Shown: in pieces, positions 1,435 to 63,665 of the stretch
Layout of the letters: each line of letters begins with the position of its first letter
Numbering within the stretch: the stretch's first letter is position 1
DNA from: Arthrobacter sp. zg-Y1110
GTDB taxonomy: Bacteria; Actinomycetota; Actinomycetes; Actinomycetales; Micrococcaceae
Assembly (NCBI RefSeq): GCF_025244865.1
Contig: NZ_CP104272.1
Coordinates: 1,798,001-1,862,000 of the forward strand
Direction: 5' to 3'
Length of the DNA: 64,000 nt
The notes under the pieces: generated by a model
Seen by the model: the letters and a program-made list of their open reading frames with translations, nothing else
The model's database searches: none
What the model was told of the DNA's origin: nothing
Position numbers and translations under genes: made by a program

Positions 1435-1517
1435 GCACAGCATCCCACTCGGTGGTGCTGCTGGTGCCGGTGGGACCTCAGGAACTACCAGCAGCCCCTA
1501 ACCGTGGGACCCCGTGC
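1435..1517 (+). repeat. Palindromic element, copy 1 (83 bases)
   Basis: An imperfect palindrome between gntR and uvrA. The left end GCACAGCATCCCA and right end TGGGACCCCGTGC are inverted repeats (10 of 13 positions). Inner arms GCTGCTGGT (1457-1465) and ACCAGCAGC (1487-1495) pair perfectly. The same ends and length recur in the 25.7 kb array and at 63583-63665, where the inner arms have other sequences that also pair. No open frame or target-site duplication was recognised. Confidence 0.75.
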
Positions 1518-1607
1518 ACGCGTGCGATGCAGCCCCGGCAGCTCCAAAGGCCCGCAGCCAGGGACCCCCGCACCGGCTCCGCTTCGCCCGCGGCGAAACC
1601 CGGGGGG

Positions 1608-1623
1608 TCGAATACTTTTTCGA
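1608..1623 (+). promoter_or_regulatory. LexA (SOS) box upstream of uvrA
   Basis: TCGAATACTTTTTCGA is a palindrome (TCGAA-N6-TTCGA) that differs from the Gram-positive LexA consensus TCGAAC-N4-GTTCGA by one base in each arm. It ends 14 bases before the -10 box TACAGT of uvrA, so a bound repressor would cover the -35 region. uvrA is a classical SOS gene, so the context supports the call. Confidence 0.7.
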
Positions 1624-1637
1624 ATCGGCGTTTGAAC

Positions 1638-1643
1638 TACAGT
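1638..1643 (+). promoter_or_regulatory. -10 box of uvrA
   Basis: TACAGT lies seven bases before the GTG at 1651. The alternative GTG at 1642 falls inside this box, so the box favours 1651 as the start of a leaderless message. No clear TTGACA-like -35 is present; the LexA box overlaps that position. Confidence 0.5.
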
Positions 1644-1650
1644 GGAAAAC

Positions 1651-4554
1651 GTGCCTAAATCGACTCTTCCGACGGCTGACACCACGTTCGTGCCGCATAA
1701 AGCCAATGACCTTTCCCGCCTGGTAGTGAAAGGTGCGCGCGAGCACAACCTCCGCAACGTTGACCTGGACCTGCCGCGGGACGCCATGATCGTGTTCACC
1801 GGCCTGTCCGGCTCGGGCAAATCCTCCCTGGCGTTCGACACCATCTTCGCGGAGGGGCAGCGGCGTTACGTCGAGTCCCTGTCCGCCTATGCGCGCATGT
1901 TCCTCGGCCAGGTGGACAAGCCCGACGTCGACTTCATCGAGGGGCTTTCACCCGCCGTCTCGATCGATCAGAAGTCCACCAGCAAGAACCCGCGGTCCAC
2001 GGTGGGAACCATCACCGAGATCCACGACTACATGCGCCTGCTCTGGGCCCGTGTGGGGCGGCCCTTCTGCCCGGTCTGCGGCGAGCCCGTCAGCCGGCAG
2101 ACCCCGCAGCAGATCGTGGACCAGCTCCTCGAACTCGAAGAGGGAACCCGGTTCCAGATCCTTGCCCCGGTGGTCCGCGGCCGGAAGGGCGAATTCGTCG
2201 ACCTGTTCAAGGAACTCGCCGCCAAGGGCTACTCGCGTGCCCGGGTGGACGGCAAGCAGGTCCAGCTGTCCGATCCGCCGAAGCTTGGCAAGCAGTACAA
2301 GCACAACATCGAAGTGGTCGTGGACCGCCTGGTGGCCAAGGACGGCATCCGGCAGCGGCTCACGGACTCCGTGGAAACCGGACTCGGCCTGGCCGACGGC
2401 CGCGTGGTGGTGGACTTCGTCGACATCCCCGAGGACAGCAGCGAACGGACCCGCACCTTCTCCGAGAACCTCGCCTGCCCGAACGAGCACCCGCTGGCCA
2501 TCGACGAAATCGAACCGCGGTCCTTCTCCTTCAACAACCCGTTCGGGGCCTGCCCCGTCTGCACCGGCATCGGCTCCCGGCTGGAAGTCGATGAGGACCT
2601 GATCATTCCGGATCCCTCCAAGTCCCTGGCCGAGGGCGCCATCGCCCCGTGGTCCCTGGGCACCGCCACCACCGAGTACTGGAACCGGCTGCTCGACGGC
2701 CTGGCCAAGGACATGGGCTTCTCGATGGACACCCCCTGGAAGAAGCTCCCGGCCAAGGTGCGCGAGGCAGTGCTCCACGGCAAGGACCACAAGGTGGTGG
2801 TCCAGTACCGGAACCGCTTCGGCCGCGAACGCAAGTACAGCACCGGCTTTGAAGGCGTGATCCAGTACATCCACCGCAAGCACGGGGAAACCGAATCGGA
2901 CCACGCCCGTGACCGGTACGAAGAGTACATGCGGGAAATCGCCTGCCCCGAGTGCGGGGGAGCGCGGCTGAACCCGGCGTCCCTGTCCGTGCTGATCAAC
3001 GGCCGCAACATCGCCGAGATCAGCGCCCTGCCGCTGCGCGAAGCCGCGGACTTCCTGAACACCTTGGTCCTGACCGGACGTGAAGCGCAGATTGCCAACC
3101 AGGTGCTGAAGGAGATCCAGGCCCGCCTGACCTTCCTGCTCGACGTCGGCCTGGAGTACCTGAGCCTGAACCGCCCGGCGGCCACGCTGTCCGGCGGCGA
3201 GGCCCAGCGCATCCGCCTGGCCACGCAGATCGGCTCCGGCCTCGTCGGCGTGCTGTACGTCCTCGACGAGCCGTCCATCGGCCTGCACCAGAAGGACAAC
3301 CGGCGCCTGATCGATACCCTGATCCGGCTGCGCAGCCTGGGCAACACCCTGATCGTGGTGGAACACGACGAAGACACCATCCAGGAAGCGGACTGGATTG
3401 TCGACGTCGGCCCCGGCGCCGGAGAGCGCGGCGGCGAGGTTGTGCACTCCGGCCCGTTGGCCGAGCTGCTCACCAACGAGCGCTCCATCACCGGCGCCTA
3501 CCTGTCCGGGCGCAAGAAGATCGAAATCCCGGCGAAGCGGCGCAAGGTGGACAAGTCCCGCCAGCTGAAGATCGTAGGTGCCCGGGAAAACAACCTGCAG
3601 AACCTGAACGTGGATGTTCCGCTGGGCGTCTTCACCGCCGTGACAGGTGTCAGCGGGTCCGGCAAGTCCACGCTGATCAACGACATCCTCTACAAGACGA
3701 TGGCGAACAAGCTCAACGGCGCGAAGCACGTGGCCGGGCGGCACACCCGTGTGGAGGGCCTGGAGCAGCTGGACAAGGTCATCCACGTGGACCAGAGCCC
3801 GATCGGACGGACCCCGCGGTCCAACCCGGCCACCTACACCGGCGTCTGGGACCACATCCGCAAGCTGTTCGCCGAGACCAACGAGGCGAAGGTGCGCGGC
3901 TACCTGCCGGGCCGCTTCTCCTTCAACGTCAAGGGCGGCCGCTGCGAAGCCTGCCACGGCGACGGCACACTGAAGATCGAAATGAACTTCCTGCCCGACG
4001 TGTATGTTCCCTGCGAGGTGTGCCACGGCGCCCGGTTCAACCGGGAAACCATGGAGGTGCACTACAAGGGCAAGAACATCGCCGAGGTGCTGGACATGCC
4101 GATCGAAGAGGCAGCAGAGTTCTTCGCCGCCTTCGGTCCCATTTCCCGGCACCTGAACACGCTGGTGGACGTGGGCCTGGGCTACGTCCGGCTGGGCCAG
4201 CCCGCCACCACGCTCTCCGGCGGTGAGGCGCAGCGCGTGAAGCTCGCCAGCGAACTGCAGAAGCGGTCCAACGGCCGCAGCATCTACGTCCTCGACGAGC
4301 CCACCACGGGCCTGCACTTCGAAGATGTGCGCAAGCTGCTGGAGGTGCTGCAGGGACTGGTGGACAAGGGCAACACCGTGATCACCATCGAGCACAACCT
4401 GGACGTCATCAAGAGCGCCGACTGGATCATCGACCTCGGCCCCGACGGCGGTACCGGCGGCGGCAAGGTGGTTGCCTCCGGCACCCCGGAGAAGGTTGCC
4501 AAGGTGGAGGGCAGCCACACCGCGACGTTCCTGGCGGAGATCCTCAACCAGTAG
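1651..4554 (+). CDS. uvrA: Excinuclease ABC subunit A
   Basis: UvrA is the DNA damage-recognition ATPase of nucleotide excision repair; it loads UvrB onto lesions. The 967-residue product has the full family architecture: Walker A GLSGSGKS at 51-58, a first zinc module (CPVCGE), a second (CPECGG), signature TLSGGEAQR with Walker [11 protein letters not shown], a second Walker A GVSGSGKS at 666-673, the CEACHGDG...CEVCHG zinc finger, a second TLSGGEAQR and [10 protein letters not shown]. Length is normal. The GTG at 1651 is preferred over 1642 because of the -10 box position. SOS control is likely through the LexA box at 1608-1623. uvrC lies 1.6 kb downstream in its own unit; uvrB is not in the window. 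Confidence 0.98.
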
Positions 4555-4560
4555 TTCAAT

Positions 4561-4600
4561 GAAGGCCGGTGGCTGCCCTAGCGGGCGGCCGTCGGCCTTC
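4561..4600 (+). terminator. Stem-loop after uvrA
   Basis: GAAGGCCG pairs with CGGCCTTC and, inside it, GGCTGCCC pairs with GGGCGGCC around a TAGC loop; the two stems are separated by a GT/GT internal loop. There is no U-tract, so this is a terminator of the U-less kind common in actinobacteria, or a 3'-end stabiliser. Confidence 0.6.
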
Positions 4601-4644
4601 GGCGTGTCCGGCCCGGTCGCGGAGAAATATACGCGCCCGAAAGA

Positions 4645-4691
4645 TATGCACCGCAGGGCATACCTTTTTCCCTTGGGACGCCCGGATATGC
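4645..4691 (+). promoter_or_regulatory. TATGC palindrome and extra half-site upstream of the HAD gene
   Basis: TATGC (4645-4649) and GCATA (4658-4662) form an inverted repeat with an 8-base spacer; a further TATGC lies at 4687-4691, 14 bases before the GTG start. The spacing looks like an operator with a third half-site, or TATGCA at 4687 may be the -10 box. No regulator is known for it. Confidence 0.3.
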
Positions 4692-4704
4692 AAAACTTAG
4701 GCCC

Positions 4705-5403
4705 GTGACTTCTCCCCGGCTTTTAGTGCTGTTCGATCTCGATGGAACGCTGGTTGATCCGGCCGGTGCCATCACGGGCGGCATCCGTTCCGCCCTCACG
4801 GCCTGCGGGCTGCCGCAGCCGTCAGAGGCGGACCTGTTCCGGATGGTCGGACCCTCCCTGGTGACGTCCCTGCGTGAAATCGCCGGCGTTCCCCAGGACC
4901 GCCTGGAAGCGGTGATCCGCCACTACCGGCAGGGTTACCGGCAGGCAGGCATGGCACAGAGCCGGCCTTACCCGGGCATCCGGGACCTGGTGGAGAATCT
5001 GCGCACGGAGCACACCGTAGCCGTGGCCACCCAGAAACCCGGGCACTTGGCGGTGGAACTCCTGGAGGTGCAGGGCATGGACAGCCTCTTTGCTTCCGTT
5101 CACGGCTCGCCCGCCGACGAGCAGGCCGCCGCCGCACTCAACGGCAAAGCCGGCATTATCCGTGCCGCCCTGGAGCGGCACGCGGGTTCCTTCGACCGGG
5201 CCGTGATGATCGGCGACCGCAGGCACGACGTCGAGGGAGCCGCTGCCAACGGAATCGACTGCATCGGCGTCTCCTGGGGCTTCGCTGCCACCGGCGAGCT
5301 CGACGCGGCGGGGACCGCCGTCGTCGTTGACACCGCGGAAGAACTGGCCGATGCTGTGCTGGCCTATGCGCAGAACGGAGCGGCACTGAATGGTTCTGTA
5401 TAA
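4705..5403 (+). CDS. HAD family phosphatase (phosphoglycolate phosphatase-like)
   Basis: A 232-residue haloacid dehalogenase-type hydrolase of the Gph/PGMB subfamily. Motif I is DLDGTLVDP (nucleophile Asp plus Asp) near residue 10; a helical cap follows; motif II is the Thr of ATQKP, motif III the Lys of that loop, and motif IV GDRRHDVEGAAANG. These bind phosphate and magnesium in a cytosolic enzyme. The substrate is uncertain: 2-phosphoglycolate, pyrophosphate and sugar phosphates are all possible. Translation starts at GTG with little leader. The gene overlaps the next one (plsC-like) by 14 bases, so the two are probably co-translated. Confidence 0.88.
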   Translation: MTSPRLLVLFDLDGTLVDPAGAITGGIRSALTACGLPQPSEADLFRMVGPSLVTSLREIAGVPQDRLEAVIRHYRQGYRQAGMAQSRPYPGIRDLVENLRTEHTVAVATQKPGHLAVELLEVQGMDSLFASVHGSPADEQAAAALNGKAGIIRAALERHAGSFDRAVMIGDRRHDVEGAAANGIDCIGVSWGFAATGELDAAGTAVVVDTAEELADAVLAYAQNGAALNGSV

Positions 5404-6058
5404 CCTGACCCGGGCAAGCACCCGCGGGCTTGTCGCCGGTCTGTGCCGGCCCACGATCACCGGACTCGAGCATGTTCCGGCTCACGGCCCTTTCATTGTC
5501 GCCTGCAACCACCAGTCCTTCCTGGACAGCGTCCTGGTCCAGGCCCTGCTGCCGCGCCGCGTGGGTTTCTTCGCCAAGGCCGAATACTTCACCGGGACCG
5601 GCCTCAAGGGGCTCGCGATGAAAAGCTTCTTCGAAGGCGTGGGTTCCATTCCGGTGCAGCGCGACCAGCAGGCCGCCAGCGTTGCGGCGCTCAAGACCCT
5701 GCTGGACATCCTCGAGGAGGGCGGCGGCGTCGGAATTTACCCCGAAGGCACCCGCTCACGCGACGGACTGCTCTACCGCGGCCGCACCGGCGTGGGCTGG
5801 CTGGCACTGACCTCCGGGGCTCCGGTGGTACCCGTGGGGCTCATCGACACCGACAAGCTGCAGCCCGCCGGCAAGAAAACGGTCAAGCCCGGACACTTCA
5901 CCCTGAAGGTGGGGCAGCCGCTGTACTTCCAGAAGACCGGACCGGAGCATGCGCTGCCGGCTCGCCGCCAGGCCACCGACCGGGTCATGGACGCCATCGC
6001 CGAGCTCAGCGGCCAGCAGCGCTCGGACAGCTACAACCGGAACCGGCCGGAGGGGTAG
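5390..6058 (+). CDS. plsC: 1-acyl-sn-glycerol-3-phosphate acyltransferase family protein
   Basis: A 222-residue PlsC-type acyltransferase that adds an acyl chain to lysophosphatidic acid (or a related acceptor) at the membrane. Motif 1 is NHQSFLD near residue 39, the catalytic His-Asp pair; the FFEGVGSIPVQR block follows; motif 3 is YPEGTRSRDG; motif 4 is the APVVPVGL region. The length is typical of actinobacterial members, which are often present in several copies, so the exact acyl acceptor is uncertain. Its start lies inside the end of the HAD phosphatase gene; a phosphatase beside an acyltransferase fits a lipid role for both, but this is inference. Confidence 0.88.
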   Translation: MVLYNLTRASTRGLVAGLCRPTITGLEHVPAHGPFIVACNHQSFLDSVLVQALLPRRVGFFAKAEYFTGTGLKGLAMKSFFEGVGSIPVQRDQQAASVAALKTLLDILEEGGGVGIYPEGTRSRDGLLYRGRTGVGWLALTSGAPVVPVGLIDTDKLQPAGKKTVKPGHFTLKVGQPLYFQKTGPEHALPARRQATDRVMDAIAELSGQQRSDSYNRNRPEG

Positions 6059-6162
6059 CCAGACGGCCCGGTAAAGACGCTCACCGGCGCCCGGAGCGTG
6101 CCGGACTGTTCAGCGCCGCGCGAAACCCCATGCCGCCGTCCGGGGCCGGCGAAAGGCGAACG

Positions 6163-6168
6163 TAGGAT
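6163..6168 (+). promoter_or_regulatory. -10 box for leaderless uvrC
   Basis: TAGGAT lies exactly six bases upstream of the GTG at 6175, the standard distance for a leaderless actinobacterial mRNA. No LexA-like palindrome was found near it, unlike uvrA. Confidence 0.55.
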
Positions 6169-6174
6169 GGAGAC

Positions 6175-8181: not shown

Positions 8182-8262
8182 TTAGGCTTGGGAACCGGCG
8201 TGTCGGCTTCGAACCGTTCGGAGTTCTTCGAAAAGCAGGACAATCAGGATGGGATCACAGTA

Positions 8263-9162
8263 ATGACGCAAGAGGACGGCTTGACCGTAGTCAAACCGGA
8301 GGAATCGGAGCTGCTCGTAGTTACGGGCATGTCCGGCGCCGGGCGCAGTACCGCCGCCAATGCGTTGGAAGACCACGGCTGGTACGTCGTCGAGAACCTG
8401 CCTCCGATGATGCTTGGTACCCTCACCGAGCTGGTCTCCCGGATGCCGCAGTCCATTCCGAAGCTGGCCGTGGTGGTCGACGTCCGCAGCAAGGAACTCT
8501 TCCAGGACATCCGCGAAGCCCTGCGCAACCTGCGTGCCGCCGGCGTCACCTACCGCCTGCTGTTCCTCGACGCCGATGATTCCACCCTGGTCCGGCGCTT
8601 TGAACAGGGACGACGCCCCCATCCGCTGCAGGCCGACGGCAGCATCCTGGACGGCATCGCCGCCGAACGCGAGGTCCTGACGGAGCTGAGGGAGTCCTCC
8701 GACATCGTCCTGGATACGTCCAAGCTGAATGTCCACGCTCTGGCCACCGCCGTCACGGAGCTGTTCACGGAGTCCGGCCCGATTGTGCTGCGCCTGAACG
8801 TGATGAGCTTCGGTTTCAAATACGGACTGCCGGTGGACGCGAACTACGTTGCCGACGTCCGCTTCATCCCCAACCCGCACTGGGTCCCGCAGCTGCGCCC
8901 GCACACCGGGCTGGACGAAGACGTCCGCGACTACGTCCTGCAGGCCAAGGGCACCGCGGAGTTCCTGGACCGTTACGTCGACGCCCTGGAGCCCGTCATT
9001 GACGGCTACCGCCGGGAAAACAAGCACTACGCCACGATCGCCGTCGGCTGCACCGGCGGCAAGCACCGCTCCGTTGCCGTCACGGAGGAACTGGCCAAGC
9101 GCCTGGCCCAGCTTCCGCACGTGACGGTCAGCTCCCACCACCGGGATCTGGGGCGCGAGTAA
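8263..9162 (+). CDS. rapZ: RNase adapter RapZ / UPF0042 nucleotide-binding protein
   Basis: A 299-residue P-loop protein. Residues 22-29, GMSGAGRS, form the Walker A motif with Arg in place of Lys, a common actinobacterial variant. The C-terminal half carries the conserved FKYGLP, RFIPNPHW and GCTGGKHRSVA blocks. In E. coli RapZ guides RNase E to the GlmZ sRNA; in Gram-positives the partner is not settled. The ATG at 8263 gives the usual length and begins just before the conserved domain; an upstream TTG at 8188 would add 25 residues that do not look like the family. The stop codon shares one base with the yvcK start, so the genes are translationally coupled. Confidence 0.95.
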   Translation: MTQEDGLTVVKPEESELLVVTGMSGAGRSTAANALEDHGWYVVENLPPMMLGTLTELVSRMPQSIPKLAVVVDVRSKELFQDIREALRNLRAAGVTYRLLFLDADDSTLVRRFEQGRRPHPLQADGSILDGIAAEREVLTELRESSDIVLDTSKLNVHALATAVTELFTESGPIVLRLNVMSFGFKYGLPVDANYVADVRFIPNPHWVPQLRPHTGLDEDVRDYVLQAKGTAEFLDRYVDALEPVIDGYRRENKHYATIAVGCTGGKHRSVAVTEELAKRLAQLPHVTVSSHHRDLGRE

Positions 9163-10181: not shown

Positions 10182-10191
10182 GAGTGTATTT

Positions 10192-24410: not shown

Positions 24411-25349
24411 GTGACTACCCAGCATGCCGAGTCTCCGGTCCACACGGGGAAGATGACGGCGGGCCGCAAGGTCCGGGCATACGTGGCGCTCACCAAACCG
24501 CGCGTCATCGAACTCCTGCTCGTGACCACGCTCCCCACCATGATCTTCGCCGAACAGGGACTTCCGTCCCTGGGCCTGATCCTGGTCACCATGATCGGCG
24601 GCGCACTGGCAGCAGGAAGCGCCGGTGCCTTCAACTGCTATATCGACCGCGACATGGACAAGCTGATGAAGCGGACCAAGAACCGTCCGCTGGTCACCGG
24701 CGAGGTGTCCCCGCGGGAGGCCATGGTCTTTGCGTGGGTGCTGGGTGTTATCGCCATTGCCCTGCTCTGGTTCGGGGCCAACCCGCTCACCGGCCTGCTG
24801 GGCCTCGGAGCCATCCTCCTGTACGTGGTCTTCTACACGCTGATCCTCAAGCGCCGCACCACCCAGAACATTGTCTGGGGCGGCGCCGCGGGCTGCATGC
24901 CCGTACTCATCGCGTGGGCCGCCGTCACCGACAAGGTGGAATGGCCGGCCATCATCCTGTTCATGATCATCTTCCTGTGGACGCCGCCGCACTACTGGCC
25001 GCTGTCCATGAAGTACGGCGAGGACTACCGCAACGCCAGCGTGCCGATGCTCGGCGCAGTTGCCGGCGCCAAGCTCGTCTCCGTCCAGGTGGTCCTGTAC
25101 GCCTACGCCACCGTGGCCTGCTCGCTGCTGCTCGTTCCCGTTGGCGGTGCCGGCTGGGTCTACACCATCGCCGCCCTGCTCTCCGGCGGCTGGTTCGTGG
25201 CCGAGGCCCACAAGCTGCATTCCCGGGCCCAGCGCGAAGAGCTCAATGACAAGTCCGCCATGAAGGTCTTCCACCTGTCCATCAGCTACCTCACGATCCT
25301 CTTCCTGGCTTTGGCCGTGGATCCGTTCGTGGGCGGCGCGCTGGTCTAG
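24411..25349 (+). CDS. ctaB: Protoheme IX farnesyltransferase (heme O synthase)
   Basis: A 312-residue membrane prenyltransferase of the UbiA superfamily that adds a farnesyl group to heme B, giving heme O for cytochrome oxidase. The first Asp-rich motif is [20 protein letters not shown] and the second [13 protein letters not shown]; both bind Mg-diphosphate. About nine membrane helices alternate with these loops. The GTG start sits close to a TAAAGT -10 box. ctaA, the next enzyme in the pathway, lies convergently 720 bases away beyond a repeat-rich gap. Confidence 0.97.
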
Positions 25350-25365
25350 CCTTTCCGCTTTACTG

Positions 25366-25393
25366 TGGCCGGATCCCTTCGGGGGTCCGGCCA
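25366..25393 (+). terminator. Terminator after ctaB
   Basis: TGGCCGGATCCC pairs with GGGGTCCGGCCA (one mismatched or wobble position) around a TTCG tetraloop, then TTGTTGTGT. It begins 17 bases after the ctaB stop. Confidence 0.8.
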
Positions 25394-25408
25394 TTGTTGT
25401 GTCTGGGG

Positions 25409-25450
25409 TTCCGTGTTCCGTGCTCCGTGCTCCGTGTTCTGTGCTCCGGG
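25409..25450 (+). repeat. Heptad tandem repeat, six copies
   Basis: Six contiguous 7-base units: TTCCGTG, TTCCGTG, CTCCGTG, CTCCGTG, TTCTGTG, CTCCGGG. They lie directly after the ctaB terminator and run into the nested palindrome. Units this short can change number by slippage. Confidence 0.8.
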
Positions 25451-25526
25451 CGTTCCGGAACGGCGGCTACGAAACTCCCGGCTCGCAGAGCTCGCCGGGA
25501 GTATTAAAGCCGCCTACCCCGGAACG
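25451..25526 (+). repeat. Nested palindrome (76 bases) in the ctaB-ctaA gap
   Basis: Three pairs of arms are nested: CGTTCCGG/CCGGAACG (25451-25458, 25519-25526), GGCGGCT/AGCCGCC (25462-25468, 25508-25514) and CTCCCGGC/GCCGGGAG (25475-25482, 25494-25501). The layout resembles the 83-base palindromes nearby, but the sequence is unrelated. It could fold into a long hairpin. Confidence 0.7.
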
Positions 25527-25624
25527 TCCTCCGCGCCTGTTACAGCACCGTGTGCCTCATCGGCTGCACCCGCGCAGCTGTTCATAGTGCAGTTAATGCC
25601 GGTAACGGAACGGACAGACAGCAT

Positions 25625-25647
25625 CTACTGCACTCTGAATGCAGTAG
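25625..25647 (+). promoter_or_regulatory. Perfect 8-bp inverted repeat
   Basis: CTACTGCA (25625-25632) and TGCAGTAG (25640-25647) flank a 7-base loop, 31 bases before the tandem array. It may be a hairpin or binding site; no gene starts near it. The bases from 25527 to 25676 hold nothing else that I recognise. Confidence 0.4.
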
Positions 25648-25678
25648 CCCCCGGCCGGGCGGGTCCGGATCCGTCCGT

Positions 25679-25960
25679 GCACAGCATCCCAGGCTTTGGG
25701 ACTCCTGTTGCTGCCGGGGTCACACCCGCAACAGGAGCACCAGGGCGTGGGACACCGTGCGGGAGGCAGCCCTTGCGTGCACAGCATCCCAGGCTTTGGG
25801 ACTCCTGTTGCTGCCGGGGTCACACCCGCAACAGAAGCACCAGGGCGTGGGACACCGTGCGGGAGGCAGTCCTTGCGTGCACAGCATCCCAGGCTTTGGG
25901 ACTCCTGTTACTGCCGGGGTCACACCCGCAACAGAAGCACCAGGGCGTGGGACACCGTGC
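25679..25960 (+). repeat. Three tandem copies of the palindromic element (100-base period)
   Basis: Copies of 82 bases at 25679-25760, 25779-25860 and 25879-25960 are separated by near-identical 18-base spacers, giving an exact 100-base period. They differ by single changes only. In copy 1, CTCCTGTTGC and GCAACAGGAG pair perfectly; copy 2 has one mismatch and copy 3 two. The ends GCACAGCATCCCA and TGGGACACCGTGC match those of the copies at 1435 and 63583. All forward frames read open because the GC-rich unit lacks stops; this is not coding. Confidence 0.9.
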
Positions 25961-25998
25961 GGGAGGCAGTCCTCCCGAACACAGGCCCCGGGGGAAAA

Positions 25999-26039
25999 GA
26001 AGAAGGGCCGGACCCCGTCAGGAGTCCGGCCCTTTCTTC
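25999..26039 (-). terminator. Terminator of ctaA
   Basis: On the minus strand GAAGAAAGGGCCGGAC pairs with GTCCGGCCCTTCTTC (one bulge), followed by TTTTCCCCC. It lies 31 bases after the ctaA stop. Confidence 0.8.
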
Positions 26040-26069
26040 GGCAAATGCGCCCGTTACAAGAGGCGCCCG

Positions 26070-27071
26070 CTACTTCCGAACAGCCCGGGTCTTGCGCGCC
26101 CGCCGGGCCTGCTGGACCGCGATGGCGGCCCCGCCGGGAACCTGCTTGTTGAAGCCGATGTAGACGGCCTGGGCCGCTGCGGCCGTCAGCAGGCATGCAC
26201 CGAACATGTGCAGGGCCACCAACGCAATAGGCAGGTGCAGGAAGTGCTGCACGTAGCCGATGGCGGCCTGAGCCAGTACGACGACGGCCAGCACCATCAC
26301 GGCCCGGCGCACCCGGGCATCGGTCGCCCTGCGGAGCACCAGGTAAAGGGCCACGGCCAGCGCAAAGACCAGCAGGTAGACGGGAACCACGTGGATGCGG
26401 GTGATCAGGTCCGGGTTCAGGCCGTTACGCGCAGCTCCGTGGTCGCCGGCGTGCGGGCCGGAACCGGTCACTACTACACCCAGCACCACGGTCAGGGCGG
26501 ACAGGACGCCGATGGCGCCCAGCACGGGGCGGAGGCTTTTATCCGCCAGCGGAGCATGGCGCGCCTGGAGATCCATCGCGGAAAGCCTTGAGCGATTCAC
26601 CATGACCACGGCCACGGTGATCATGATGGTGGAGGCAAGGAAGTGCAGGCCCACAACCCACGGGTTGAGGTCCGTGAGGACGGTGATCCCGCCGATGACG
26701 GCCTGTGCCGGGACTCCGGCCAGCAGTGCAATGGAAAGCCACCAGAGATCACGGCGTTCGGACCGCAGGCGCCACACGGAGAAGACCATCGCAAAGGCAA
26801 TGGCCGTAAGCACGAAAGTGAGCAGCCGGTTGCCGAACTCGATGACGCCGTGCAGCCCCATCTCGGGCGTCGTGACGAGGGAATCGGCCGTGCACAGCGG
26901 CCATTCAGGACAGCCCAGCCCGGACGCTGTCAGGCGCACGGCACCGCCGGTCACCACGATAACTATGTTGGCCACCAGCGAGGCCACGGCAAGGTTGCGG
27001 ATAAGGCGTCCGGCCACCGGCAGCTGGCTGTTCGATTGCCGGGAGGGGACACCGGCCGAGGTTGATGACAC
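26070..27071 (-). CDS. ctaA: Heme A synthase
   Basis: A ~333-residue membrane protein that oxidises heme O to heme A for cytochrome aa3 oxidase. Eight helices are expected. GLGCPEWPLC near the first helix is the conserved Cys pair of the Gram-positive type; heme-ligand histidines lie in HGVIEFGNR, VGLHFLAS, ITRIHVVPVY and ALHMFGA. The C-terminus is basic (RRARKTRAVRK). The GTG at 27071 has GGAG nine bases upstream; an ATG at 27086 would overlap the permease gene by ten bases and has no Shine-Dalgarno. It is co-directional with the ABC pair, the order also known from mycobacteria. Confidence 0.95.
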   Translation of the reverse strand: MSSTSAGVPSRQSNSQLPVAGRLIRNLAVASLVANIVIVVTGGAVRLTASGLGCPEWPLCTADSLVTTPEMGLHGVIEFGNRLLTFVLTAIAFAMVFSVWRLRSERRDLWWLSIALLAGVPAQAVIGGITVLTDLNPWVVGLHFLASTIMITVAVVMVNRSRLSAMDLQARHAPLADKSLRPVLGAIGVLSALTVVLGVVVTGSGPHAGDHGAARNGLNPDLITRIHVVPVYLLVFALAVALYLVLRRATDARVRRAVMVLAVVVLAQAAIGYVQHFLHLPIALVALHMFGACLLTAAAAQAVYIGFNKQVPGGAAIAVQQARRARKTRAVRK

Positions 27072-53688: not shown

Positions 53689-53692
53689 CTGT

Positions 53693-55378: not shown

Positions 55379-55426
55379 GGCTCACGGGTCCTAGTTGGGT
55401 CGGCGGGGGAGTTGGGCCCGGTCCCA

Positions 55427-56621: not shown

Positions 56622-59420
56622 ATGAGTTCGCAAGGCAACAGTGGAAGCGTCCCAGGCGTTTCCATGCAGCATCAGATCCAGTCCCCGTGGTTGTTCCCCG
56701 CTGAAGAGGTGGCAGCGGCGCTGAACACAGACCCGGATGCCGGGCTAGACGCCGGCGAAGTCCGGGACCGGCTGGACCGTTACGGGCCGAACCAGCTCGC
56801 CGAGGGCAAAAAGGTACCGGTGTGGCGGAAGATCCTGGCCCTGCTCTCGGACCGGTTGACCATCGTCCTGATCATCGCCGCGGTTGTCAGTGCCGTGGTC
56901 TCGCGCGAGTGGGAAACCCCGGTGGTGATCCTGCTGGTCATCATCCTCAACACCACCCTGAACTACGTGCAGGAGCAACGGGCCGAGAACAGCCTGGAAG
57001 CCCTGCGCAATGCGTCGGTGGACAGTTGCCGGGTGCTGCGGTCCGGGAACGCGGCAACAGTGGAGCGCACGGAGCTGGTGCCCGGCGACGTTGTGCTCCT
57101 TGAAGCGGGGGACAGTGTGCCGGCGGACGGACGGCTGCTGGAAGCCGTGCGCCTGCAGGTGGCCGAGGCTGCGCTCACCGGCGAGTCCAAGCCCACCAAT
57201 AAGATTGTCGCTCCGCTGTCGGATCCGCAGCTGCCGGTCGCGGACCGCACCAACCTGCTTTTTATGGACACCGATGTGACCCGTGGGCGCGGCGTGCTGC
57301 TGGTCACGGGGACCGGCATGGAAACCCAGATCGGCACCATCGCGCATTTGCTGGGCAGTACGGCGGAGGAAAAGACCACCCTGCAGCGCAGCATCGACCA
57401 GCTGGCACGTGTCCTGACCTACATCGCCTTCGCCGTCGTCACCCTCGTGTTCTTACTGGGGCTGCTGCGCGGGGACAGCTGGGAAGACCTGTTCCTGACC
57501 GCCGTCTCACTGGCCGTGGCCACCATTCCCGAGGGGCTGACCGCCGTTGTGGCCTTCACCCTCGCCATGGGTGCCTCCCGGCTTGCCGCACGCGGGGCGA
57601 TCATCAAGCAGCTGGCAGCCGTGGAGACCCTCGGCAGCACTTCGCAGATCTGCACGGACAAGACCGGCACGCTTACCCTCAATGAAATGACGGTGCGGCG
57701 GTTGTACTCGCCCGCGGGCCGCCGGTTCCGGGTGACCGGGAACGGCTATTCCACGGATGGAAAGATCCTCAGCCCCGACGGGCAGTCCGCCCCCTTGCCA
57801 CCGGAGGCGTTTATGGCCATGGCGCTGTGCAACGACGCCTCTGTCGAGGACGGCAGGCTGACCGGCGACCCGACCGAGGGCTCCCTCGTGGTCCTGGCGG
57901 AAAAGGGCGGGATCGACGTCGCCGGCGCCCGGGCCACCCACCGGCGCATCGCCGAGGTGCCGTTCGACTCCGACTACAAGTTCATGGCCACGTTCAACCG
58001 CTCGGACGACGCCGGGGCCGCCGTGCACTGCAACGTCAAGGGGGCGCCCGGCGTGGTCCTGGACCGGACGGCGTTCCTGCAGACCCCGGACGGCCTGGTT
58101 CCGCTGGACCCGGAGGAACGGGCGCGCATCTCCCGCGACGTGGAGTCCCTGGCCAACGCCGGCCTGCGGACCATGGCGGTAGCCGGGCGGGTACTGGATG
58201 CACCGCTGCCGTCCAGCCCGGATGCGCTGTTTGCCGAGGCTGCCAACCTGGTGCTGTACGCCGTCGTCGGAATCCTGGATCCGCCCCGGCAGGAGGCAGC
58301 CGAAGCCATTGCCCGCGCGCGGGCCGCCGGGATCGACGTGCACATGATCACCGGGGACCATCTGATCACGGCCTCGGCGATTGCCAGGGACCTCGGGATC
58401 GAGGGCAGGGCCGCAGCCGGCACGGCACTCGATGCCATGGATGATGCTGAACTGCGCAGGCAGGCTCCGCAGCTGGGGGTGCTGGCCCGGGTTTCCCCCG
58501 AACACAAGATCCGGATTGTGGAGGCACTTCAGGCGGACGGCTACATAGTGGCCATGACCGGCGACGGCGTGAATGACGCTCCGGCGCTGAAACGCGCCGA
58601 CATCGGGATTGCCATGGGCATCACCGGCACCGATGTGTCCAAGGGCGCGGCCAAGATGATCCTCACCGATGACAACTTCGCCACCATTGTGGCGGCTGTC
58701 GAAGAAGGCCGAGGCATCTACGACAACATCCTGAAATTCGTCCGGTTCCAGCTGACCACCGCCTGGGGGTTCGTGCTGATCTTCCTCGCGGCCGCAACCT
58801 TCGGCTTCGCCGGCGGGGCGCCCTTCACCGCGCTGCAGATCCTGTGGGTGAACATCATCATGGACGGTCCGCCCGCCTTGGCCCTCGGCGTGGACCGGAC
58901 CGATCCGGACGTGATGAAAAAGCCGCCCCGGCCGGCCACCGAGCCCCTGCTTACGGCCCGGCGGATCGCGGTGCTGACAATGCTCGGCATCGTGATGGCG
59001 GTGGGCACCTGTACCGTCCTGGTCAATGCGCCGCGGTGGTTCCCCGAAAGCGCCGGCAGTACCAACTTCGCCACCACCATGGCCTTTACCACCTTCGTGT
59101 TCTACCAAGTGTTCAACCTGTTGAACGTCCGCTCGGAAACCGGCAGCATCTTCACGCTGCGGACCTTCACCAACCGCGCCATCTGGGTTTCCCTCGTCGC
59201 AGTGGTGGTGCTGCAGATCCTGGTGGTGCAGCTGAGCATCTTCGCGGGAATCTTCGACACGGTGCCGCTGACCTCAGCGCAGTGGTTCCTCTGCTTCGCC
59301 GTCGGCGCGACCGTCCTGGTGGTCTCCGAGATCGGCAAGGCGGTGCAGCGGCTGTCCGCCCGCCGTCGTCGGCCGGGGCCTGCGGCTGTGCCGAAGTCCT
59401 ACCAGGGGGAGGGCTTGTAG
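56622..59420 (+). CDS. P-type cation-transporting ATPase (P2 class, probably Ca2+)
   Basis: A 932-residue ATPase with ten helices. The phosphorylated Asp is Asp346 in CTDKTGTLTLNEM; GDGVNDAPALKRAD at ~647 and the TGES-like AALTGESKPTNK loop are present. In helix 4 ATIPEGLTAVVA and in helix 6 WVNIIMDGPPALALG keep the Ca2+-site Glu, Asn and Asp; helix 5 (FQLTTAWGF) lacks the extra SERCA residues, resembling one-site SPCA pumps. So it probably exports Ca2+ (or Mn2+). AAGGAA lies 13 bases before the ATG. Its end overlaps the next gene by 22 bases. Confidence 0.92.
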   Translation: MSSQGNSGSVPGVSMQHQIQSPWLFPAEEVAAALNTDPDAGLDAGEVRDRLDRYGPNQLAEGKKVPVWRKILALLSDRLTIVLIIAAVVSAVVSREWETPVVILLVIILNTTLNYVQEQRAENSLEALRNASVDSCRVLRSGNAATVERTELVPGDVVLLEAGDSVPADGRLLEAVRLQVAEAALTGESKPTNKIVAPLSDPQLPVADRTNLLFMDTDVTRGRGVLLVTGTGMETQIGTIAHLLGSTAEEKTTLQRSIDQLARVLTYIAFAVVTLVFLLGLLRGDSWEDLFLTAVSLAVATIPEGLTAVVAFTLAMGASRLAARGAIIKQLAAVETLGSTSQICTDKTGTLTLNEMTVRRLYSPAGRRFRVTGNGYSTDGKILSPDGQSAPLPPEAFMAMALCNDASVEDGRLTGDPTEGSLVVLAEKGGIDVAGARATHRRIAEVPFDSDYKFMATFNRSDDAGAAVHCNVKGAPGVVLDRTAFLQTPDGLVPLDPEERARISRDVESLANAGLRTMAVAGRVLDAPLPSSPDALFAEAANLVLYAVVGILDPPRQEAAEAIARARAAGIDVHMITGDHLITASAIARDLGIEGRAAAGTALDAMDDAELRRQAPQLGVLARVSPEHKIRIVEALQADGYIVAMTGDGVNDAPALKRADIGIAMGITGTDVSKGAAKMILTDDNFATIVAAVEEGRGIYDNILKFVRFQLTTAWGFVLIFLAAATFGFAGGAPFTALQILWVNIIMDGPPALALGVDRTDPDVMKKPPRPATEPLLTARRIAVLTMLGIVMAVGTCTVLVNAPRWFPESAGSTNFATTMAFTTFVFYQVFNLLNVRSETGSIFTLRTFTNRAIWVSLVAVVVLQILVVQLSIFAGIFDTVPLTSAQWFLCFAVGATVLVVSEIGKAVQRLSARRRRPGPAAVPKSYQGEGL

Positions 59421-60835
59421 TCCTTGAGGAAGACGCCGTACTGGTCTTCGCCGTTTTCGCCCATCACGATCGGGTCGTAGACGCGGGCCGCGCCGTCGAC
59501 CAGGTCCAGCGGCGCGTGGAAGCCTTCCTCAGCCAACCGCACCTTCGTGGGGTGGGGACGCTCGTCGGTGATCCAGCCGGTGTCCACGGCCGTCATGAGG
59601 ATCCCGTCCGTTTCCAGCATTTCCTCGGCGCTGGTGCGCGTGAGCATATTCAGCGATGCCTTGGCCATGTTGGTGTGCGGATGTCCGGGCCCCTTGTAAC
59701 GGCGGGAGAACTGTCCTTCCATGGCTGACACGTTCACGATGTACTTCCGCCGTGCCGAAGACGCGGCCATCGCGGGGCGGAGCCGGTTGACGAGCAGGAA
59801 CGGTGCCGTGACGTTGCACAGCTGCACCTCGAGCATCTCCAGCGGGTCCACTTGGTCCACCACCTGCGTCCAGCTGTTAATCGGCGCCGTGTCCGGTACC
59901 AGCCCGCCGGCGTCGATCGCCGTTCCGGCCTCCATCCGCGCCAGCGACGAAGATCCGGCGGTGAGTGCCAGGGCAGTGACGGCGTCTGCTGCCAGCACCG
60001 GATGCGCGGCGACTGACCCGGCCAGCGCCGTGGGATGCGCGTCGTAGGTGTGCCCGAAGGTGACCAGCTCGGGCATGGGGCCGTCCGGCAACGGCGCCAG
60101 TTCGGCGTCGGTCAGCGGGCGGTAGGCGTTGGAGGACCGCCGGACGGTCTGGGCGGCATTGTTGATCAGGATGTCCAGGGGACCGGCCTCCGCCACGGAC
60201 TCGGCAAGCGAGATGACCTGGGCCGGGTCGCGCAGGTCGATGCCGACGATGCGCAGCCGGTGCAGCCAGTCCGCCGAGTCTTCCATCGCGGCGAAACGGC
60301 GGGCAGCGTCCTTCGGGAAGCGGGTGGTGATGGTGGTGTGCGCACCGTCGCGCAGGAGCCGCAGGGCGATATACATGCCGATCTTGGCGCGGCCGCCGGT
60401 CAGCAGTGCCCGCCTGCCGGTCAGGTCGGTGCGGGCGTCCCGTTTGGTGTGGCTGAAGCCCGCGCATTCGGGGCAGAGCTGGTGGTAGAACGCATCCACC
60501 ACGGTGTAGGGCTGCTTGCAGATGTAGCAGTTGCGCGGCTTGAGCAGCGTGCCGGCGGACGGTCCGTGCGCCGCGGTGGTGAGCTGCGCCCCGCGGGTCT
60601 CATCGTCAATCCGGTCAGCGGCGCCCGTGGCCGTGAGGGCGACGACGGCGCGGTCCGCCTCTGCAACGGCGGAGCGCTTTTCGTTCTTCCGGTGCTTCTT
60701 CACGGACTTGAACATCTTGGCGGTGGCCCGCCGGACCGCGACGTAGTCGGGGTTTTCTTCATCCAGGACATGGATGGAAGCCAGGACCTTCAGGGCTGTC
60801 TGGATTTCTTCCGGGCTTAGTTCAGGGGTGCTCAT
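59399..60835 (-). CDS. SDR family protein with N-terminal zinc ribbon and atypical active site
   Basis: A 478-residue protein. The first ~80 residues are helical and basic (ATAKMFKSVKKHRKNEKR). CYICKQPYTVVDAFYHQLC with CPEC forms a C-x2-C...C-x2-C zinc ribbon near residues 118-141. The Rossmann fold then starts with LTGGRAKIGMYIA and ILINNAAQ. At the catalytic site, NVSAMEG holds the Ser, but Thr stands four residues before the Lys in HTNMAKASL, so the usual Tyr is missing. AAAGG precedes the ATG at 60835 by five bases; a start at 60853 has none. The substrate is unknown. Confidence 0.85.
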   Translation of the reverse strand: MSTPELSPEEIQTALKVLASIHVLDEENPDYVAVRRATAKMFKSVKKHRKNEKRSAVAEADRAVVALTATGAADRIDDETRGAQLTTAAHGPSAGTLLKPRNCYICKQPYTVVDAFYHQLCPECAGFSHTKRDARTDLTGRRALLTGGRAKIGMYIALRLLRDGAHTTITTRFPKDAARRFAAMEDSADWLHRLRIVGIDLRDPAQVISLAESVAEAGPLDILINNAAQTVRRSSNAYRPLTDAELAPLPDGPMPELVTFGHTYDAHPTALAGSVAAHPVLAADAVTALALTAGSSSLARMEAGTAIDAGGLVPDTAPINSWTQVVDQVDPLEMLEVQLCNVTAPFLLVNRLRPAMAASSARRKYIVNVSAMEGQFSRRYKGPGHPHTNMAKASLNMLTRTSAEEMLETDGILMTAVDTGWITDERPHPTKVRLAEEGFHAPLDLVDGAARVYDPIVMGENGEDQYGVFLKDYKPSPW

Positions 60836-60934
60836 GGGGGCCTTTACGCTCATCGGCACCGGAGGATCCACAGTGCAGGCGCACCATGTGCGCCCTCCGA
60901 GGATACCGGACAAGACAGCAGGCACCCGTATCGA

Positions 60935-60975
60935 GGGCGGGGGCACCGGGATATCTCACACCCGGCGCCCCGCCC
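60935..60975 (-). terminator. Stem-loop after glgC
   Basis: GGGCGGGGGC with ACCGGG pairs with CCCGG and GCCCCGCCC with small bulges. On the minus strand it lies eight bases after the glgC stop. No U-tract. The gap to the SDR gene also holds a smaller hairpin (GGCGCAC/GTGCGCC, 60878-60894). Confidence 0.6.
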
Positions 60976-60983
60976 CTGACCGG

Positions 60984-62228
60984 TTAGTTCTCCGGGACGC
61001 GCTGTCCCTTGCTGAGCACGGTGAGGCCGGACTCGGTCACGGTGAACCCGCGGCTGAGGTCCAGTTCCCGGTCCACGCCCACGGTGGCGCCGGCGGGGAT
61101 GCGTACGTTCTTGTCGATAATCGCCCTTCGGACCACCGCGCCCTCACCCACGTGCACCTTGTCCATCAGCACTGAGTCGGTCACCTCGGCGTTGGAGGCC
61201 ACGTAGACGTCCTGCGCCAGCACGGAACCGGTCACTGTGCCGCCGGAGATCACGGTGCCGTCGGACACGATCGAGTCGATGGCGGATCCGGCCTGGTCGG
61301 AAGCGCTGCGGACGAACTTGGCGGGCGGGGAAATGCTCTGCCGCGTGTAGATGGGCCACTTCAGGTTGTACAGGTTGAACGCCGGCAGCGGCGAAATCAG
61401 GTCCATGTTGGCGTCGTAGTAGGAATCCAGGGTGCCGACGTCGCGCCAGTACTGGTGGTCGCTGCCGGTGGCGCCGGGAATGATGTTCCGGGTGAAGTCG
61501 TAAACGGCAGCGTCGCCGCGTTCGACGAAGTAGGGAATGATGTCCCCGCCCATGTCGTGCTTGGTGACCAGGCGTTCCTCGTCCCACTCCAGCGCCGAGA
61601 CCAGGGCGTCGGTGTTGAAGACGTAGTTGCCCATGGAGGCCAGGAAGCTGCCGGGATCATCGGGCAGCCCGGGGGTGGTCTCCGGCTTTTCCACGAACGC
61701 AGCGATGCGCTCCGGGTTTTCGGAATCGGTTTCGATCACGCCGAACTGGTCCGCCAGGTGCAGCGGCTGCCGCACTGCGGCTACGCTGACCGACGCGCCG
61801 GAGGCAATGTGCGCCTCGACCATCTGGGAGAAGTCCATGCGGTACACGTGGTCGGCGCCGATGACGACGACGATGTCCGGCTGGGCGTCCTCAATCAGGT
61901 TCATGGACTGGTAGATGGCGTTCGCGCTGCCCAGGAACCAGCTCTTGCCCACTCGCTGCTGCGCGGGCACGGAAGCTACATAATTCTGCAGCTGGGTGGA
62001 AAGCCGCCAGGTTTCAGAAATATGCCGATCCAGGCTGTGGGATTTGTACTGGGTCAGGACCACGATCTGCAGGTAGCCGGAGTTCACCAGGTTTGAAAGT
62101 GCGAAGTCGATGAGGCGGTAACGTCCGGCAAAGGGAACCGCCGGTTTAGCCCGATCTGCTGTGAGCGGCATTAGCCGTTTACCCTCGCCGCCCGCGAGAA
62201 CTACTGCCAGGACCTTCTTAGGCGCCAT
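60984..62228 (-). CDS. glgC: Glucose-1-phosphate adenylyltransferase
   Basis: A 414-residue enzyme that makes ADP-glucose for glycogen synthesis. [16 protein letters not shown] with [11 protein letters not shown] is the nucleotidyltransferase site; [26 protein letters not shown] and [16 protein letters not shown] are typical. The C-terminal third is a left-handed beta helix (repeat-like [12 protein letters not shown]). GGAAGAGG lies nine bases before the ATG. It diverges from glgA, which uses its product. Confidence 0.97.
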
Positions 62229-62252
62229 TGTCTTGAACCTCTTCCGAAAATA

Positions 62253-62271
62253 AGTCTACTGACTTCAGACT
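62253..62271 (+). promoter_or_regulatory. Inverted repeat and promoter in the glgC-glgA divergent gap
   Basis: AGTCT (62253-62257) and AGACT (62267-62271) are inverted with a 9-base spacer. On the minus strand, TAGACT (62258-62253) is a likely -10 box of glgC. One site could serve both genes, but no known regulator site matches. Confidence 0.35.
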
Positions 62272-62294
62272 AGATCACTGGTTGCCCGGTGCAC

Positions 62295-62300
62295 TACGTT
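62295..62300 (+). promoter_or_regulatory. -10 box of glgA
   Basis: TACGTT lies six bases before the GTG at 62307. The upstream GTG at 62289 lies before this box and could not be on the same leaderless message. Confidence 0.5.
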
Positions 62301-62306
62301 GGTTTA

Positions 62307-63503
62307 GTGCGAGTAGATATTGTGTCGAAGGAATTCCCGCCGGAAATCTACGGAGGAGCAGGCGTTCACGTTGCCGAGCTCAGCCGGGTCCTGGCCGGAG
62401 AAGTAGATCTCCATGTGCATTGTTTCGGTGCCCCGCGCCCCGAAGATTTCCACGGAGCCAAAGTAAAAAGTTATGCAGTGCCGGCGGAACTCCAGTCCGC
62501 GAATCCTGCCGTGCAGACCCTCGGGACGGACCTCGAAATCCTCGGCGGACTGGCCGGCGCGGACCTGGTCCATTCACATACCTGGTATGCCAATATGGCC
62601 GGCCACCTGGGATCGCTGCTGCACGGCGTTCCGCACGTGCTCAGCGCCCACAGCCTGGAGCCGCTGCGTCCGTGGAAGGCCGAGCAGCTCGGCGGGGGAT
62701 ACGCCGTCTCCTCCTGGGTGGAGAAAACCGCCTACGAGGCAGCCGCCGCCATCATCGCCGTCTCCGAGGGCATGCGCCAGGACATCCTGCGCAGCTACCC
62801 TGACGTGGACCCGGGCCGGGTTCGGGTGGTCCACAACGGCATCGATGTGCAGCAGTGGCAGCCGGACATCGACCCCGACGGCGTCCGTGCCTTCGACATT
62901 GATCCGGACCGTCCCAGCGTGGTCTTCGTCGGCCGCAACACCCGCCAGAAGGGTGTGCCCTACCTGCTGCGCGCTGCGGCACTGCTGCCGCCGGAGGTCC
63001 AGCTGGTGCTGTGCCTCGGCGCAGCTGACACGCCTGAACTGGCTGCGGAAACCGCCGTGCTGATCGAGGAACTGCGGCGCACCCGCACCGGCGTCGTGGT
63101 GATTGAGCGTATGCTGCCGCGCGCCGAGCTGATCAAGGTCCTCTCCATCGCCACCGTGTTCGCCTGCCCGTCGGTCTACGAGCCGCTGGGCATCGTGAAC
63201 CTCGAGGCAATGGCCTGCGGCACCGCCGTCGTCGCCAGCGCCACCGGAGGTATCCCCGAAGTCGTCGATACCGGCGTCACCGGGCTGCTGGTGCCCATTG
63301 AGCAGGTCACCGACGGGACCGGCACGCCGCTGGACCCGGAGAAATTCGTGCGGGACTTCGCTGCTGCGCTGACCGAAGTGGTGACGGATCCGGAGCTGGC
63401 CCGGCGGATGGGCGAGGCAGGCCGGATCCGGGCCACCGAGCGGTTCTCCTGGGAATCCATCGCCGAGGAGACCCTCGCGGTGTACCGCTCCGTCCTGGCC
63501 TAG
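62307..63503 (+). CDS. glgA: Glycogen synthase (actinobacterial GT4-type)
   Basis: A 398-residue GT-B glycosyltransferase. The N-terminal RVDIVSKEFPPEIYGGAGVHVAEL matches the actinobacterial GlgA/GlgM group; VHSHTWYANMAG, FVGRNTRQKGVPYLLRA and CPSVYEPLGIVNLEAMACG (donor-binding E-x7-E) complete it. In mycobacteria the homologue (GlgM) makes maltose-1-phosphate from ADP-glucose rather than glycogen directly, so the true product may be either. The leaderless GTG at 62307 begins the conserved region. It diverges from glgC, its ADP-glucose supplier. Confidence 0.93.
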   Translation: MRVDIVSKEFPPEIYGGAGVHVAELSRVLAGEVDLHVHCFGAPRPEDFHGAKVKSYAVPAELQSANPAVQTLGTDLEILGGLAGADLVHSHTWYANMAGHLGSLLHGVPHVLSAHSLEPLRPWKAEQLGGGYAVSSWVEKTAYEAAAAIIAVSEGMRQDILRSYPDVDPGRVRVVHNGIDVQQWQPDIDPDGVRAFDIDPDRPSVVFVGRNTRQKGVPYLLRAAALLPPEVQLVLCLGAADTPELAAETAVLIEELRRTRTGVVVIERMLPRAELIKVLSIATVFACPSVYEPLGIVNLEAMACGTAVVASATGGIPEVVDTGVTGLLVPIEQVTDGTGTPLDPEKFVRDFAAALTEVVTDPELARRMGEAGRIRATERFSWESIAEETLAVYRSVLA

Positions 63504-63523
63504 GCCGGGGGATCCGAACGCCG

Positions 63524-63556
63524 AAAGGCGCCGTCGCAGCTGCGTCGGCGCCTTTT
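63524..63556 (+). terminator. Terminator after glgA
   Basis: AAAGGCGCCG pairs with CGGCGCCTTT, and inside CGCAG pairs with CTGCG with one T-T mismatch between; a T follows to give TTTT. It lies 20 bases after the stop. Confidence 0.8.
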
Positions 63557-63582
63557 GGCTGTACCGGTGCGCAACCTCCGCC

Positions 63583-63665
63583 GCACAGGGTCCCACCGTT
63601 TGGTGCTCCTGTGAACGCTGTGACCCCGACGGACAACACAGGCCCCACCTACTGGGACGCTGTGC
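63583..63665 (-). repeat. Palindromic element, copy 5 (83 bases, inverted)
   Basis: Read on the minus strand, it begins GCACAGCGTCCCA and ends TGGGACCCTGTGC, close to the copies at 1435 and 25679. The ends pair at 12 of 13 positions; inner arms CCTGTG (63608-63613) and CACAGG (63637-63642) pair. The central GGGGTCACA is shared with the tandem array. It lies between the terminators of glgA and the convergent gene. Confidence 0.75.

Follow-up and report, generated by a model that had tools for sequence, protein, structure and literature searches.

A dispersed intergenic palindrome of Arthrobacter with two inverted arms of 9-bp subsites, a candidate protein platform on double-stranded DNA

Introduction

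Three intergenic places in a 64,000-nucleotide stretch of the Arthrobacter sp. zg-Y1110 genome (hereafter the window) carry a palindrome of about 83 bp, and the question is what kind of element this is: one that folds, one that moves, or one that is bound by a protein. Dispersed bacterial palindromes tend to get filed as hairpins, REPs or MITEs. MITEs are short, dispersed elements with inverted-repeat ends, and 'foot' is the term for a palindrome start of the GTAG/GTGG type. In the accessible part of their description, REPs and BIMEs are dispersed intergenic imperfect palindromes, often clustered or in tandem and variable in copy number; BIMEs are known binding sites for proteins (gyrase, IHF and Pol I), and the REPs listed there start with GTAG/GTGG-type sequences (PMC2817692). 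The available sections of a 2025 REP survey give a length of mostly 20-50 nt and mention Arthrobacter once, in a table row for A. livingstonensis with generic hairpin counts (PMC12306157). Searches of the open-licence literature, outside which most subscription papers lie, brought up no description of the element family analyzed here.

Results

Copies in the window and their surroundings

Five copies of the element, 82-83 bp long, were recovered with the positions, lengths and ends that an earlier note on this DNA had given (Table 1). Four lie on the minus strand, and the copy at 63583..63665 is inverted relative to the others. The three copies at 25679-25960 form a tandem array with a period of 100 bp. 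Eight proteins scanned beside the copies belong to ordinary, mutually unrelated families. A search of the window with Rfam 15 at gathering score gave 0 matches; at relaxed E-values the region 25300-26100 gave three, all under the gathering scores of their families, and a tRNA search found none.

Table 1. Element copies and associated features, in window coordinates.
Feature	Position	Strand	Description
Element copy 1	1435..1517	-	83 bp; between GntR-family regulator gene and uvrA-like gene, both +
Element copy 2	25679..25760	-	82 bp; first of tandem array of three
Array of three, placement			Between convergent UbiA-family (+) and COX15/CtaA-family (-) genes
Array spacer	25761..25778	.	18 bp
Element copy 3	25779..25860	-	82 bp; same array
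Array spacer	25861..25878	.	18 bp
Element copy 4	25879..25960	-	82 bp; same array
Terminator-like hairpin left of copy 5	63518..63560	.	By eye
Element copy 5	63583..63665	+	83 bp; convergent glycosyltransferase (+) and acyl-CoA oxidase-like (-) genes either side
Copy 5 left arm, three head-to-tail 9-bp subsites	63601..63627	+	TGGTGCTCC, TGTGAACGC, TGTGACCCC; register from family profile
Copy 5 right arm, three 9-bp subsite positions	63621..63647	-	Innermost degenerate, overlaps centre
Second terminator-like hairpin, right of copy 5	63700..63746	.	By eye

Two other palindromes lie close to the array. At 25446-25529 there is a member of a second, unrelated dispersed family of about 83-87 bp, with ends GGNCGTTCCGG..CCGGAACGTCC and inner stems GCCGCC and CTCCCGGC. 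At least 26 of the 29 genomes of the genus have matches to it of 81-95% identity, and many have several; among them are G001 and G003, both of which are without the element with 9-bp subsites described below. This second palindrome is not a tRNA and has no Rfam match at gathering score. A third type (..GTGCAGTAGATGC../..GCATCTACTGCAC..) occupies 25583-25647 and is found also in loci L050, L062, L063 and L140; by eye it adjoins several copies of the element with 9-bp subsites.

Family size and distribution

A pattern of the two ends matched 8 places in the genome, each on both strands, and its reversed control matched 0. A covariance model built from seven copies (R1) returned 72 rows, which represent 36 copies at 19 loci as each copy is detected on both strands, so that further copies in the genome are not few. 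All 36 copies are on C1 (3.5 Mb) and none is on C2 (0.4 Mb). With a rough codon-based gene caller, 19 of 19 loci lie outside called genes, in agreement with the dispersed intergenic family proposed from the window. By the same rough caller the flanking genes are convergent at 8 of these 19 loci, divergent at 6 and co-directional at 5; L055 (two copies 0.7 kb apart with a small called gene between them) was classed by its outer genes. A terminator function by itself does not suit this mixed orientation of neighbours, and a promoter function by itself does not either.

Related Arthrobacter genomes, which the earlier note had proposed to search, contain the element as well. R1 was positive in 19 of 39 genomes, all among the 25 genomes of the same genus (own genome included), and gave 0 positives in the 14 genomes from other families of the order. 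The sequence-only models R2 and R3 added G019 and four further genus genomes (G039-G042), which brings the genus to 24 of 29 genomes with copies. G001, G003, G010, G014 and G021 had no match with R1 and R3, nor G003 and G010 with R2; with 5 of 29 genomes lacking a detected copy, a function of the element would not be essential throughout the genus. An exact-pattern scan of a collection of 84,980 species returned 31 stretches, 30 of them in Arthrobacter (A. zhaoxinii, A. gandavensis, A. gallicola, A. yangruifuii and zg-Y strains); the single stretch in a Caldilineales MAG was taken as chance.

Within the family Micrococcaceae, R2 matched 14 of 197 genomes, which belong to 2 of 32 genera. R3, which was built solely from 16 copies of a second genus (g41), matched 27 of 395 genomes, spread over 6 of 32 genera, and recovered the present genus again. 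Repeated R3 matches were obtained in three genera (g1, g41 and g30), with 8-10 matches in each of 3 genomes of g30, for which up to 10 candidates were scored per genome and three loci were read. The one weak R3 match in each of g20, g24 and g36 (E 2e-4 to 1e-3) looked chance-like by eye, and these genera were not counted. Judged by sequence matches, relatives of the element are present in at least two other genera.

Two inverted trains of 9-bp subsites

The element consists of two oppositely oriented half-sites of about 41 bp, and the profiles of its left and right arms are nearly alike. Each half-site has an outer box RCACRGNKTCCCA, followed 5 bp further in by three head-to-tail 9-bp subsites with consensus TGKKRCNSN, which start at arm positions 19, 28 and 37. 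The arm profile, made from the 59 of 67 representative copies that are 82-84 bp long, reads RCACRG at 1-6, TCCCA at 9-13, TGKKRC at 19, TGKK at 28 and a weaker TGK at 37. When one copy per locus of the own genome was taken (38 arms), 33 arms had a TGKK starting at position 19, 29 arms had one at 28, 19 arms at 37 and 6 arms at 38; no other start between 15 and 38 was seen in more than 5 arms. The autocorrelation of the arm profile at lag 9 was not reached in any of 3000 column shuffles, both in this genus and in g41. Lag 10 was also raised in this genus (P=0.018), lag 9 alone stood out in g41, and lag 11 was not raised (P 0.58 and 0.44). In the spectrum of the conservation profile the peak lies at 9.25-9.5 bp and not at 10.5, as predicted by 9-bp repeats.

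The same 9-bp subsite anatomy is found independently in g41, where the ends of the element are different (mostly CCCAGYT before GTCCCAC). Counted in 16 of 17 copies, with the G068 copy omitted, a looser pattern, WGDK, is present at three starts spaced by 9 bp in 32, 32 and 29 of the 32 arms, and at any other start in at most 13. The core (TCCCA..TGGGA) measures 77 bp in all 17 copies, in a search that allowed 70-85 bp; the commonest core length in the present genus is 67 bp (82 of 139 copies), which is 10 bp, or about one helical turn, shorter. Copy length in this genus is 82-84 bp in 129 of 139 distinct copies. Near-fixed geometry, symmetric half-sites and head-to-tail repeats are together what the assembly of a protein on duplex DNA would require.

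Folding and covariation between the arms

The inner arms are complementary within each window locus, as the earlier note had observed, and it had taken this as covariation of inner stems, indicative of selection for a folded DNA or RNA or of a mobile palindrome of REP or MITE type. When the better strand was folded, the energies of all five copies were 4.07 to 5.89 sd under those of dinucleotide shuffles (-4.07 for the copies at 1435 and 63583; -5.89, -4.62 and -4.31 for the tandem copies), and on the other strand the copies at 1435 and 63583 were at -1.87 and -1.54 sd.

Pairing was then compared between each arm with its own partner and the same arm with arms from other copies (whole-arm shuffle). 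The sets with 2000 shuffles comprised 129 of 139 copies, 59 of 67 representatives and 34 of 36 own copies; a set of 30 copies consisted of the representatives with length 83. The 156-copy set omits repeated fetches of one locus and eight short, cut-off or weakest matches (located in L031, L038, L078/L162, L094, L100, L140 and L142). In the 34 own copies the inner arms were paired at 0.665 against 0.656 after shuffling, with 630 of 2000 shuffles as high, and the outer arms showed no excess (0.878 against 0.879). One copy per own locus (n=19) gave P=0.31 for the inner and 0.53 for the outer arms. The proposed covariation of inner stems is thus not borne out in this genome. In g41 the inner arms were paired at 0.658 against 0.683 after shuffling (P=0.92, 16 copies).

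The multi-species sets pointed partly the other way. The 30 diverged copies had 65.8% inner pairing against 63.2% (31 of 500 shuffles as high), and small inner excesses were seen in two more sets (0.655 against 0.635, 32 of 2000; 0.623 against 0.596, 48 of 2000). As the shuffles keep the relatedness of the copies, a small pairing excess is expected without structure. The outer stem had a clear excess, with 0 of 500 shuffles as high and 0 of 2000 in two further sets. Of the outer cells with both sides changed, 15 of 20 fall on positions 7-8, at which the two arms change in concert from one clade variant to the other (GTCCCA/TGGGAY and TTCCCA/TGGGAA), as symmetric half-sites would behave. A lack of compensating excess with more copies, which had been named as evidence against a fold, was seen for the inner stem in the own genome, and the multi-species sets departed from it with their small inner and clear outer excess.

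The centre (34-40) was less paired than in every one of the 2000 shuffles, both for the own copies and for the all-copies set; for the representatives this held against 1921 of 2000. G-U cells exceeded A-C cells (162 against 119 in 67 representatives; 59 against 34 in a second count), and the per-copy asymmetry was 125 against a simulated mean of 107, the largest of 2000 simulations being 139. The G-U excess leans toward a structure specific to one strand, but the model used to orient the copies itself favours G-U pairs. What makes the arms of the window copies complementary is that each holds a version of the same motif. Selection for a folded element largely fails as a reading: compensating changes are in no clear excess in the inner arms, and the arms vary near-independently.

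Tandem arrays and spacers

Among the matches listed for the own genome, G009, G020 and G039 there are 61 spacers shorter than 200 bp, of which 38 are 18-22, 12 are 29-31 and 4 are 8-9 bp long, with single spacers of 6, 16, 25, 34, 39, 43 and 51 bp. These were entered by hand, with cut-off matches extended to the model ends, and the set omits one 60-base partial match and two weak isolated G039 matches. Spacer sequences vary between loci, so that the common length is not simply that of a shared spacer. After arrays had been collapsed, with orthologous arrays of different species kept apart, 8 of the 14 spacers outside the main class were in phase at 10.5 bp where 3.3 would be expected (P=0.008 in a post hoc test); those of 6, 16, 25, 34, 39 and 43 bp were out of phase. 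The helical phasing of spacers is suggestive only. Also among the matches listed, G039 has arrays of 6 copies (G039:C1:1967265-1967912, L110) and 8 copies (G039:C1:2264356-2265120), and the spacers of the latter run 20, 8, 8, 20, 20, 8, 20.

Orthologous sites

The site orthologous to 25679 is occupied in G008, G009, G012, G018, G020, G039 and G042, and weaker matches are present in the fetched loci of G006, G017 and G024. The 63583 locus has one copy in G020, two in G042, three each in G012 and G009 and six in G039. Empty sites, another feature to be looked for in relatives, were found in G015 and G041: neither has a match at the 25679 locus nor a copy at the 63583 locus, where their left flank is 95% identical. 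By eye, two terminator-like hairpins flank the element or elements at the 63583 locus in the own genome, G020 and G042, and a single hairpin is present at the empty locus of G041, G015, G008 and G018. This pattern suggests either a gain with local duplication or a loss by recombination between the hairpins.

Between copies at the same locus in different species, the motif blocks were 0.88-0.91 identical and the other positions 0.61-0.64, and between copies at different loci 0.74-0.85 and 0.41-0.45, in a comparison for which the blocks had been defined on the same family and copies within one array are not independent. It included 15 of 17 copies for the 25679 locus and 15 of 16 for the 63583 locus, one odd-length copy each from G008, G012 and G039 being omitted. 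The block identity at the same locus argues for vertical descent in which the blocks are preserved as the other positions diverge, and gene conversion between copies may add to this preservation.

Search for a mobile parent

The Y1 transposase domain of RAYT and IS200-type proteins (PF01797) was detected in 0 of 25 genus genomes, with the control positive in 5 of 14, and the REP-like character considered in the earlier note finds no partner there. A half-site pattern, CACNGNNTCCCA, matched 105 places in the genome against 35 for its reversed control. Thirteen half-sites outside known copies, chosen among about 100 of the 105 places in the own genome, were read, and no transposase was recognized beside them. 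Nine lie inside called genes, those at 144810 and 2450216 are without a called gene, and two truncated copies lie beside 2379343. An inverted pair of half-sites 5.6 kb apart (2444649/2450216) encloses no transposase recognized by eye. The window array had no match at E 1e-5 in plasmid and phage collections, and viral contigs gave one match, within a called gene. By eye or flank-flank BLAST no consistent target duplication was seen, with weak matches only; at 63583 the BLAST returned an inverted match that comes from the two terminator-like hairpins.

Some copies are incomplete. At L061 (genome 2379299-2379485) an intact copy has truncated copies on either side. L140 3100-3128, of Arthrobacter zhaoxinii, is a 29-bp copy in which the interior is deleted and the outer arms are joined, a shape as expected from replication slippage across a hairpin. 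G019, a genome in which one full copy was found, has two solitary half-elements of 35-38 bp (L178 and L181), and no transposase was recognized by eye in their 3-kb loci.

Discussion

The element is probably a platform of double-stranded DNA for a putative protein that oligomerizes head to tail. As a predicted protein site it is well supported by its sequence; a protein of the BldC or recombination-directionality type is what we infer beyond that. The protein would bind sequence-specifically and load on each arm, so that two filaments, one per arm, would face each other; it is most likely small, of the winged-helix or HTH kind, and oligomerizes head to tail in a BldC-like manner. In tandem copies, with spacers of mostly 18-22 and less often 8-10 or 29-31 bp, neighbouring complexes may cooperate on one face of the helix. 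The sites would multiply by tandem duplication and occasional dispersal and would be kept by selection. As to their role, the least certain part, our guess is chromosome organization or structuring, a regulatory array or insulation, rather than transposon ends.

BldC is the closest precedent for the subsites. In the part of the BldC report at hand each protomer occupies one 9-bp direct repeat, head to tail, and the number of repeats is variable; the consensus is AATTXXXX(C) and the two sites described are promoter sites (PMC5859096). The present element shares the head-to-tail 9-bp direct repeats, but its consensus is TGKKRCNSN and its repeats form two inverted trains in dispersed intergenic elements. 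With a consensus that differs, it would work like BldC sites without being one. Binding sites of MtrA or of another OmpR/PhoB-family relative also consist of direct repeats with a GTCACA-like core, and the other strand of the subsite, NSNGYMMCA (for example GTCACA or GTAACA), resembles MtrA half-sites such as GTCACAgcg (PMC4285127, in the portion seen). The accessible excerpts describe MtrA boxes as 8-bp repeats with a 3-bp linker (PMC3353115), as 9 nucleotides with a spacing of 2 (PMC6265350) and as GtnAcC-n5-GTnAcn (PMC13189361), and do not describe them as inverted pairs. Their repeats are 11 bp apart, whereas lag 9 is strong here and lag 11 is not, and no promoter is expected at the loci between convergent genes. 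MtrA boxes were rejected on this spacing, and we regard a site of this protein family as highly improbable.

The main rival is a MITE in which two long terminal inverted repeats abut and which a putative transposase, binding the 9-bp subsites, would move in trans. Like MITEs, the element is short and dispersed with inverted-repeat ends; its spread to 19 loci with conserved ends, the patchy occupation of orthologous sites, the truncated copies around an intact one and the internally deleted copy at L140 3100-3128 would all be explained. In a limited search neither a parent transposon nor a consistent target duplication was found: no transposase was recognized beside the half-sites read in the own genome, the plasmid and phage collections held no match of the window array, and the one viral-contig match is inside a called gene. 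The blocks are moreover conserved at orthologous sites, which a dead insertion would not do. We consider this reading unlikely, though it deserves to be kept in view. Selection on base pairing, in a structured RNA or in a REP- or attC-like hairpin of single-stranded DNA, would account for the low folding energies, for the outer covariation and small inner excess across species and for the G-U excess. That reading is largely refuted and has very little probability left, as there is no clear excess in the inner stem nor any in the outer stem of the own genome, the centre is less complementary than shuffles, the inner arms of g41 show no excess either, no Rfam family matches at gathering score and the 25 genomes lack a Y1 transposase. 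With REPs and BIMEs the element has in common that it is a dispersed, intergenic, imperfect palindrome in many copies; it differs from the REPs of the accessible descriptions in being 83 bp rather than mostly 20-50 nt and in its ends (RCACRG..CYGTGY, not GTAG/GTGG), as well as in having no PF01797 partner, 9-bp head-to-tail subsites and inner arms without clear covariation.

If the element is a platform for a putative oligomerizer, the copies might, more tentatively, form a chromosomal site system specific to this actinobacterial family, with dozens of intergenic platforms per genome, each of two inverted trains of three 9-bp subsites, serving organization or insulation between genes. This wider proposal is possible but doubtful. 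Under it, the recognition of the protein would have drifted together with its sites (GTCCCA, TTCCCA and CCCAGYT-GTCCCA forms), and arrays would be set in steps of about one helical turn.

The palindrome analyzed here illustrates that apparent compensating changes can stem from two copies of a binding motif, which a test for the same motif on both arms brings out. With the 9-bp subsites the protein could be sought directly. Should dozens of these sites on each chromosome indeed be coated by a protein, they would represent a nucleoid or regulatory system of a new sort, whose targets are conserved across species.
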